64,000 bases of DNA from positions 744,001-808,000 of the forward strand of contig NZ_CP076060.1 in assembly GCF_018729255.1 (NCBI RefSeq), given 5' to 3'. The notes below the pieces were generated by a model. The model worked only from the letters and a program-made list of their open reading frames with translations. It made no database searches and was not told the origin of the DNA. The stretch's first letter is position 1. Each line of letters begins with the position of its first letter. Below are positions 50,278 through 55,646 of the stretch, piece by piece. Source of the DNA: Cupriavidus sp. EM10 (GTDB taxonomy: Bacteria; Pseudomonadota; Gammaproteobacteria; Burkholderiales; Burkholderiaceae). The position numbers were made by a program, and so were the translations under genes.

Positions 50278-50793
50278 ATGAGAACGAGCCGCCAGCCGAT
50301 TCGCTCGCTGGACCGACTGGATCGGAAGATTCTTGGAGTGCTGCAGGCCGATGGCCGCATCTCGATGAAAGACCTGGCTGAAGCTGTCGGACTCACCATC
50401 ACGCCTTGCATCGAGCGCGTGAAGCGGCTGGAGCGCGACGGGGTCATCATGGGCTACTACGCCAGGCTGAACCCCGCCCTGCTGGGTAGCGCGCTGCTGG
50501 TGTTCGTTGAGATATCGCTGAACAACAAGTCGGGCAACATGTTCGAGCAGTTCCGGCGCGAAGTGCTGCGCATTCCCGAGGTGCTCGAATGCCACCTGGT
50601 GTCGGGCGATTTCGATTACCTGATCAAGGCCCGCATCCGCGAGATCGGCGAATACCGACGGCTGCTCGGCGACATCCTGCTGCAGCTACCGGGCGCCGCC
50701 CAGTCTAAAAGCTACGTCGTGATGGAAGAGATCAAGGAAACACTGGCTATCGCCGTGGATGCCAGGGAAAGCGGCGTATCCGGCACAACCTGA
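50278..50793 (+). CDS. Lrp/AsnC-family regulator (DadR-like)
   Basis: 171 residues. N-terminal helix-turn-helix LDRLDRKILGVLQADGRISMKDLAEAVGLTITPCIERVKRLERDGVI and a C-terminal RAM ligand-binding domain (EISLNNKSGNMFEQFRREVLRIPEVLECHLVSGDFDYLIKARI). Divergence from dadA makes it the likely alanine-responsive activator of dadA (DadR/Lrp-like role; inference from context). A GAAAGATTC purine stretch precedes the ATG at 50278. The radical SAM gene begins 74 bases after its stop. Confidence 0.92.
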   Translation: MRTSRQPIRSLDRLDRKILGVLQADGRISMKDLAEAVGLTITPCIERVKRLERDGVIMGYYARLNPALLGSALLVFVEISLNNKSGNMFEQFRREVLRIPEVLECHLVSGDFDYLIKARIREIGEYRRLLGDILLQLPGAAQSKSYVVMEEIKETLAIAVDARESGVSGTT

Positions 50794-50819
50794 AATCGGG
50801 CTTGGGCGGTGGGCATCGA

Positions 50820-50839
50820 TACTGTATATTTGTACAGTA
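50820..50839. promoter_or_regulatory. LexA (SOS) box before the radical SAM gene
   Basis: TACTGTATATTTGTACAGTA contains CTGT-N8-ACAG exactly (50822-50837) inside a 20-base near-perfect palindrome, matching the gamma/betaproteobacterial LexA consensus. It ends 27 bases before the ATG of the radical SAM gene at 50867, where it would block transcription initiation. Confidence 0.8.
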
Positions 50840-50866
50840 TTCTGATCGCCCCCCTATACCTGATCC

Positions 50867-52008
50867 ATGCCCCCGAATCCCATGCTGCCCCGAAAGGGCC
50901 GCGGCGCCGTCAGCAACCTGCAAGGACGCTTCGAACGCGACCAGCGCGAGGCGTTCGACGACGGCTGGGTAGCGCCAGAGGAGCCCGCGGCCAGCGATGG
51001 GGCCGACGTCGAAGTCGCGCTGCCGCCCAGGCTTGTGACCCAGGTCACTCGCGAACAGGCCAGGTCGATCCTGTCCCGCAATGCGTCGCCCGATATTCCC
51101 TTCGATACATCGTTGAATCCTTACAGGGGCTGCGAGCATGGCTGTATCTATTGCTTTGCGCGCCCCACACATGCGTATCTGGACCTGTCCCGGGTCTCGA
51201 TTTCGAGACGAAGCTGTACGCCAAGGCCAATGCCGCCGAGCGGCTGCGCGACGAGCTGTCCAGGCCGTCGTATCGCTGCGAGACGATTGCGCTTGGCGTG
51301 AACACCGATGCCTACCAGCCGATCGAGCGCGAGCAGCGCATCACGCGCGGCATTCTGGAGGTGCTCCACGACACCGATCACCCGGTGGCGCTGATTACCA
51401 AGTCGTCGCTGATCGAACGCGATATCGACCTGCTGGCGCCGATGGCGGCGCAGCGGCTGGCGGTGGCGGCCGTGACCATCACCACGCTCGACGCCGATCT
51501 GGCGCGCACCCTGGAACCCCGTGCAGCCACGCCGTCGCGACGGCTGCGCACGATCCGGGAACTGACCGACGCCGGGATTCCGGTAGGGGTGAGTGTGGCG
51601 CCGGTGATTCCGTTCATCACCGAGCCCGATCTGGAGAGAATCCTGGAAGCCGCGCACGAGGCGGGCGCGGTCTACGCGAACTACATCGTGTTGAGGCTGC
51701 CGTGGGAAGTGCGCCCGCTATTCCAGGAATGGCTGCAGGCGCATTTCCCCGACCGTGCCGAGCGGGTCATGAACCGCGTGCGCGACATGCGCGGCGGCAA
51801 GGATTACGACGCCGATTTCGCCTCGCGCATGCGCGGCACGGGAATCTGGGCCGATCTGATCCGGCAGCGGTTCTACAAGGCCGCCGACCGGCTCGGATTT
51901 CGCTACAACCGCTTCGAACTCGATACGTCGCGGTTCAAGGCCCCGCCGAGGCCCACGCGATCGATCCGTCCGCGCGGCGGCGAAGACAAGCAGGGATCGC
52001 TCTTCTGA
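50867..52008 (+). CDS. PA0069-family radical SAM protein (SplB-like), broken by a one-base deletion
   Basis: About 380 residues when repaired. The first frame ([22 protein letters not shown] ... [29 protein letters not shown]) holds the radical SAM cluster motif CEHGCIYC (Cys-x3-Cys-x2-Cys). The remainder ([22 protein letters not shown] ... [13 protein letters not shown]) is in a second frame; adding one C at CCC 51189-51191 joins them as [15 protein letters not shown]. The family is related to spore photoproduct lyase and includes mycobacterial Rv2578c; its reaction is unknown. The preceding LexA box suggests DNA-damage induction. The deletion is probably a sequence error. Confidence 0.87.
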
Positions 52009-54834: not shown

Positions 54835-54865
54835 AGTTCCTGAATTGCCGTCGAGGGAGGCGCTG

Positions 54866-55646
54866 ATGCAGTTCGATGTAATCACGCTGTTTCCCGAGAT
54901 GTTTCGCGCGCTGACCGACTGGGGCATTACCAGCCGGGCGGCGAAGCAGCAGCGTTATGCGCTGCGTACGTGGAATCCGCGCGACTTCACGGTCGACAAT
55001 TACCGGACGATCGACGATCGGCCCTACGGCGGCGGGCCTGGCATGGTGATGCTGGGCAAGCCGCTCGAAGATGCGATCGACGCCGCCAGCGCGGCGCAGT
55101 CGGACGCCGGTGTCGACCGGCCGCACGTGGTGCTGATGTCGCCGCAAGGCGCGACGCTGAGCCATGCCAAGGTCATGGAACTGGCGCAGCGCCCGGGCTC
55201 GTGCTGCTGTGCGGGCGCTACGAGGCGATCGACCAGCGGCTGATCGACCGTCGCGTGGACGAGGAAATCAGCCTCGGCGATTTCGTGCTGTCGGGTGGCG
55301 AACTGCCCGCGATGGCGCTGATCGACGCAGTGGTGAGGCATCTGCCCGGCGTACTGGGCGATGCGCAGTCGGCGGTGCAGGACAGCTTTGTGAACGGCCT
55401 GCTCGACTGTCCGCATTACACGCGGCCGGAAGAATACGAAGGTGTGCGGGTGCCCGATGTGTTGCTCGGGGCCATCATGCCGAGATTGAAAAGTGGCGGC
55501 GCCAGCAGGCGCTGGCCAATACCGCGCGCAAGCGTCCCGATCTGATCGTGGCGGCGCGCGCGCAAGGGTTGTTGTCCAAGGCCGACGAGAAGTATTTGTC
55601 GACCCTGGCGGCGAAAGCAGGGCAGGAGTTCGCTCCCGCCAAGTGA
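54866..55646 (+). CDS. trmD: tRNA (guanine-N1)-methyltransferase TrmD, broken by two one-base deletions
   Basis: About 260 residues when repaired. Makes m1G37 in tRNAs, preventing +1 frameshifting; usually essential. [25 protein letters not shown] and [13 protein letters not shown] are in the first frame. Near 55196-55200 one base (probably C after GGG) is missing; restoring it gives [19 protein letters not shown], the SAM knot. The second frame runs through [19 protein letters not shown] and [20 protein letters not shown] until the GGGG run 55468-55471, where one more G gives [16 protein letters not shown]. The end is in the third frame ([13 protein letters not shown]). Both lesions look like sequence errors. 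AGGGAGGCGCTG precedes the ATG. Confidence 0.94.

Follow-up and report, generated by a model that had tools for sequence, protein, structure and literature searches.

A predicted LexA box ahead of a PA0069-family radical SAM gene in Cupriavidus sp. EM10, and LexA-type boxes at its relatives in distant bacterial groups

SplB-like radical S-adenosylmethionine (SAM) genes have been linked to the SOS response before. In the passages available to us, an SplB-like gene is described with LexA sites in both alpha- and beta-Proteobacteria despite their differing LexA motifs, with Ralstonia eutropha, R. metallidurans and Cupriavidus taiwanensis among the species listed; the argument from motif change to an SOS function of splB was made there in 2012, and the trait was stated as not observed in gamma-Proteobacteria (PMC3323433). 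A radical SAM gene is also reported, with yet other LexA motifs, in Gram-positive and Bacteroidetes SOS regulons (PMC7739468, PMC8565304, PMC9380542). Here we analysed 64,000 nucleotides of Cupriavidus sp. EM10 (contig NZ_CP076060.1, positions 744,001 to 808,000, forward strand; hereafter the window), in which a predicted LexA box, TACTGTATATTTGTACAGTA, lies at 50820-50839 between lrp and a radical SAM gene of the PA0069 family (NF033668).

Like the splB of the 2012 study, as far as the passages describe it, the gene studied here is SplB-like and apparently LexA-controlled, and the two presumably belong to one family, though PA0069 is not named in those passages (PMC3323433). Whereas splB control went unobserved in gamma-Proteobacteria there, our scan turned up boxes in further orders of the GTDB class. 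The Gram-positive and Bacteroidetes genes are alike in their LexA control, but the passages at hand give no assignment to NF033668 or NF038135. LexA control across distant groups has thus largely been published already (PMC3323433, PMC7739468, PMC8565304, PMC9380542). A literature search returned no paper joining PA0069 to LexA, none on 'spore photolyase' with LexA and SOS and, judged by their listings, no PA0069 paper on SOS. PA0069 itself is said to belong to the P. aeruginosa SOS regulon described by Cirz in 2006. As set out below, this control is patchy among loci of the genus, and a photolyase label for the enzyme is not secured. The uncharacterised family deserves enzymology, and for this the promoter data supply both SOS-controlled and uncontrolled species to compare. 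Insertions of mobile elements tie the gene to how islands spread.

The box and its probable promoter

The original prediction placed CTGT-N8-ACAG inside a 20-base near-palindrome 27 bases from the gene start, and coordinates and pairing agree. The core, at 50822-50837, is the sole exact match of the bare pattern in the window; 8 of 10 positions of 50820-50839 pair (9 of 11 with one extra base per side), and 27 bases separate the end of the box from the ATG (50867) of the PA0069-family frame. The bare pattern occurs at chance level in the window (0.56 expected; at least one in 41 of 100 shuffles), and across the genome (6.66 Mb on four contigs, with the window on the 3.6 Mb contig) there are 38 sites, compared with 41 for the letter-reversed control. 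Where protein relatives bear a species name, the closest are from Cupriavidus.

We scored the site with a 20-position matrix built on nine other SOS-gene sites of the same genome, the query being excluded. These sites precede lexA (two), dinB, uvrA, xth, a uvrD/pcrA-like gene and three imuA-like genes, one of which matches partially and below cut-off; the lexA pair are tandem boxes upstream of the genome's single LexA_DNA_bind match, at C1:1981144. The box reached 34.9 bits, ranking fifth among the 38 exact-pattern sites, 20 of which attain 20 bits, and the runner-up place in the window scored 7.3 bits. Random sequence of first order, based on the dinucleotides of the window, gave, over 99,050,000 positions, 134 hits of at least 12 bits, one of at least 20 and none of 34.9. 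What lifts the site above chance is its AT-rich body and flanks rather than the bare pattern. This fit to the genome's own SOS sites favours the predicted LexA control, and by sequence, with strong support in silico, the box looks like a genuine LexA site. The features around it are as follows.

50278..50793, + strand: lrp, the upstream neighbour, whose stop lies 26 bases ahead of the box (open reading frame and profile matches)
50802..50807, + strand: probable -35 element TTGGGC, 17 bases ahead of the -10 (read from the sequence; TTG spacing in relatives)
50820..50839, no strand assigned: LexA box TACTGTATATTTGTACAGTA, core 50822-50837 (matrix score and random-sequence control)
50825..50830, + strand: probable -10 element TATATT within the LexA box (read from the sequence; spacing in relatives)

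Among relatives, 42 of 98 promoters with a box have a TTG 17-19 bases ahead of it (offset -18 in 23, -17 in 13 and -19 in 6; other offsets in 0 to 5). TTGGGC-17-TATATT is thus a plausible sigma-70 promoter with its -10 inside the box, and because the box overlaps the -10 at promoter-like spacing, LexA would cover this element and exclude RNA polymerase. In the scheme we propose, a sigma-70-type promoter would drive the PA0069-family gene, LexA sitting on the -10 element would block its transcription, and DNA damage would release it through RecA-stimulated cleavage of LexA. The product would be a radical SAM enzyme that folds like spore photoproduct lyase (SPL) and most likely acts on damaged DNA or nucleotides, by a chemistry other than SPL's cysteine-dependent hydrogen transfer. 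We regard this scheme as a whole as likely; LexA binding, repression, induction and the enzyme's substrate are all parts that we infer, and a role of the family in DNA repair or damage tolerance is a fair inference.

Predicted LexA control among relatives and in other clades

Promoters of PA0069-family genes were read in 216 correctly oriented loci. From the 60 same-genus genomes, the window's own and one with a fragmented gene (G043) were excluded; among genomes over the family cut-off, the counts omit 1 of 76 from the family, 3 of 43 from the order and 6 of 49 from the class, and every match under that cut-off was excluded save those of two Cupriavidus genomes (G019 and G029). A box of at least 20 bits was found in 23 of 58 same-genus loci, with none between 12 and 20 bits, and in 62 of 75 loci from the family's other genera. 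Beyond the family, such a box preceded 9 of 40 genes from the rest of the order (15 at 12 bits or more) and 4 of 43 from the rest of the class (5 at 12 bits or more). The letter-reversed control reached 12 bits in none of the genus, family or order loci and in two from the class. In a phylum-wide draw, 20 of 24 further class and order loci were read, and 17 of them had at least 12 bits (16 at least 20); the PA0069 family was present in 100 of the 199 genomes drawn, and the Rv2578c family occurs in many Actinomycetota. One class-level family had the box in 8 of 8 loci. Judged by GTDB ranks, the box bearers of other orders would probably count as gamma-Proteobacteria under the older usage.

Outside the class, 50 of 61 loci over cut-off were read, 16 of the 30 best-scoring ones coming from two families. 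GTTC-N7-GTTC, which we take to be the alphaproteobacterial LexA motif, lay upstream in 45 of the 50, representing 13 of 14 families, against 3 of 50 for the reversed control; the CTGT-type box occurred in none of the 50. For the Rv2578c family, whose mycobacterial member Rv2578c reportedly belongs to the DNA-damage regulon, we took the best 80 of at least 592 confirmed actinobacterial loci by likeness to a Tsukamurella protein. Of the 80, 61 matched TCGAAC-N4-GTTCGA with at least 11 of its 12 letters (reversed 0, downstream 4) and 75 with at least 10 (reversed 1, downstream 8), and the box mostly begins 23-25 bases ahead of the first codon. In this the analysis differs from the Gram-positive regulon papers, as far as their passages go, in that Rv2578c-family loci were scanned directly. 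LexA motifs are markedly divergent between groups, in the passages seen (PMC3323433). The strongest argument for an SOS function is that the gene keeps LexA control while the motif changes, and since it stays under LexA as the recognition sequence shifts, this radical SAM family very probably takes part in the response to damage. The conserved SOS control in distant groups that the original prediction had raised is thus supported, each group having its own LexA motif (62/75, 45/50 and 61/80 loci).

Several findings weigh against so simple a picture. The CTGT-type box is missing from 35 of 58 same-genus loci at the 20-bit line and from 38 of 43 class loci at the 12-bit line; 8 of 19 box-less class genomes with a LexA have a CTGT-type box at lexA itself; the LexA motifs of the other clades were taken as given and not derived from these data; and insertions break the gene in the two Cupriavidus genomes G019 and G029. 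Frames within these insertions resemble insertion sequence (IS) transposases by eye, and since both copies are broken the gene seems dispensable at least there. The scan of orthologous promoters that had been proposed as a check therefore came out mixed: the box is present in L056 and L057, the closest of the intact relatives, but most same-genus loci lack it.

Within the genus, lrp lies upstream on the same strand at 35 of 35 box-less and 11 of 23 box-bearing loci, so that the lrp neighbourhood alone does not decide whether a box is present. An in-frame ATG stands near the lrp stop in many box-less loci (some of them within L153-L180), which suggests that where the box is absent the gene may be transcribed by read-through from lrp. 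On a protein tree of 116 orthologues, a quick tree of limited support, 15 changes are required to account for box presence at 12 bits. Its 30 same-genus genes fall into two groups, with 15 of 15 and 5 of 15 box-bearing; the former sits in a clade of 28 shared with other genera, and the window's gene belongs by likeness to the latter.

We also examined lexA in 30 genomes without the box, 27 from the class and 3 from the same genus. LexA was over cut-off in 22 of the 30, and 26 of the 31 LexA matches over cut-off were scanned for an upstream box. A CTGT-type box of 12 bits preceded a scanned lexA copy in 11 of the 22 (3 of 3 in the genus, 8 of 19 in the class). In those eight, the PA0069-family gene has left the regulon or never joined it, as lexA carries the box. 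The absence at class level is partly a matter of a different LexA or none, and partly of true loss or of control never gained. TTAG-N6-TACTA, the Xanthomonas-type LexA motif, was tried as a group motif and rejected, occurring in too few promoters (1 of 286, at L138; reversed control 0), although that genome has the motif before one lexA too. Besides that case, 16-mers common to lexA and PA0069 promoters in box-less genomes yielded nothing convincing. One class-level genome (G329) has a divergent second lexA-like gene about 1.3 kb before the PA0069-family gene (196787-197377 and 198645-199685 on its C1).

The gene product and alternative explanations

In the window the gene is in two parts.

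50867..51202, + strand: PA0069-family N-terminal part with the CEHGCIYC codons (NF033668 positions 1-86, 114 bits; open to 51301)
51196..52008, + strand: PA0069-family C-terminal part, in another frame (NF033668 positions 89-340, 353 bits; Pfam PF04055)

The reading frame is lost at about 51175-51210, and because of this break neither piece (114 and 353 bits) reaches the NF033668 cut-off of 360. The CxxxCxxC cluster motif is present, as CEHGCIYC, in the N-terminal piece, and all 60 same-genus genomes have an NF033668 match (56 of them over cut-off). The break raises the possibility that the box is real but the gene a pseudogene here, leaving the control with no output, and further Cupriavidus copies interrupted by IS-like insertions or islands point the same way. 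However, trmD, generally considered essential, is also broken in the window (54845-55646; its three pieces each lie in a different frame, and the last matches weakly), which favours indel errors of the assembly over gene decay, and the box is identical in two relatives, L056 and L179, although the L179 gene is itself interrupted (in G029). The frame break near 51.2 kb is thus probably an assembly error, and a pseudogene, while the most serious of the alternatives, is unlikely. A programmed frameshift at 51.2 kb was considered and set aside, as trmD is broken too and relatives have a single open frame.

A second alternative is that the product is a true spore photoproduct lyase homologue performing SOS-controlled direct reversal of a UV photoproduct. 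The nearest solved structure is indeed SPL (PDB 4fhc and mutants), at 10-14% identity in structural alignments, and the radical SAM fold is common to SPL and the PA0069 family. Spore photoproduct, however, is a lesion of spores, and these bacteria are known as non-sporeformers; by sequence, SkfB, a maturase of ribosomally synthesized and post-translationally modified peptides, outscores SPL. All 221 sequences compared (146 PA0069-type and 75 Rv2578c-type) share the three cluster cysteines, and no fourth conserved cysteine column was found among them, the best other columns reaching 62 of 146 and 48 of 75. SPL has C140, mutated in the solved structures and presumably the hydrogen donor, whereas in the PA0069 family this residue lacks a conserved counterpart, as only the cluster cysteines are conserved. 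The product is SplB-like in fold but shows no conserved cysteine beyond the cluster motif. SOS-controlled splB has been proposed, in the passages seen, to serve photoreactivation (PMC3323433). For this family the photolyase label is not supported by the sequences, and we consider a true lyase improbable.

A fortuitous occurrence of CTGT-N8-ACAG, or a site of another regulator, would fit the chance frequency of the bare pattern in window and genome, but is very improbable given a score of 34.9 bits where random sequence gave 20 bits once per 99 million positions, a similar upstream site in 62 of 75 loci of the family's other genera, and a motif that changes together with LexA in other clades.

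Mobile DNA in the gene and further candidate SOS genes

Three genomes of the same family (G162, G042 and G052) have the native gene broken at one and the same point, where the His codon of CEHGCxYC meets the Gly codon.

51134..51145, + strand: uninterrupted equivalent of the split point in the window, CEH/GC codons (island junctions in relatives)
G162, C6:159066-206910 (L434-L436): island split, halves 47 kb apart on one contig
G042, C92/C93 (L437, L438): island split, halves on different contigs
G052, C28/C34 (L439, L440): island split, halves on different contigs

As the native halves lie on different contigs in G042 and G052, the islands of these two are deduced from the split. A Phage_integrase frame adjoins the N-terminal junction in all three, and the C-terminal junction is flanked by a second, full-length copy of the gene with a LexA box of 31.1 (G162), 38.5 (G042) or 35.8 bits (G052). 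The native C-terminal part of G042 is 97% identical to the window's, and its native N-terminal part keeps the window's box. In another genome (G397), the N-terminal piece ends 1-2 bases from the same point and the C-terminal piece begins much later. We lean towards the view that the iron-sulfur-motif codons are a recurrent landing site and that some elements replace the gene while keeping host SOS control. Such replacement of a damage-inducible gene under host SOS control would imply selection for its function. A Streptomyces phage, Samy, is described in the passage seen as integrating into an Rv2578c-type gene (PMC12924846); among the matches listed in our literature search, none dealt with islands in the PA0069-family gene in Cupriavidus. 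The CxxxCxxC motif also holds an intein-like insert in two genomes from other families of the order (G213 and G218), with frames of 703 or 721 residues.

L451:4285-6450 and L452:4357-6468: intein-like inserts (LAGLIDADG_3 over cut-off, Intein_splicing under cut-off)

The genome of the window has further predicted LexA boxes. Five sites of 33 to 39 bits (L008, L009, L010, L022 and L026) precede short or unidentified frames, which are possible unlisted SOS genes of this genome. Besides the imuA-like gene on C2, two more with LexA boxes occur on the smaller contigs C3 (L032) and C4 (L035), and the one in L035 matches partially and below cut-off. A second radical SAM gene, linked to uracil-DNA glycosylase (UDG) and belonging to TIGR03916, which we take to be COG4277, has a 34.2-bit LexA box (C2:1892591, L028). 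It resembles the PA0069-family gene in being a radical SAM gene with a LexA box in this genome, but differs in belonging to another family and in lying on the second large replicon. The UDG pair COG1573-COG4277 has been described, in the passage seen, as under SOS control (PMC8565304).
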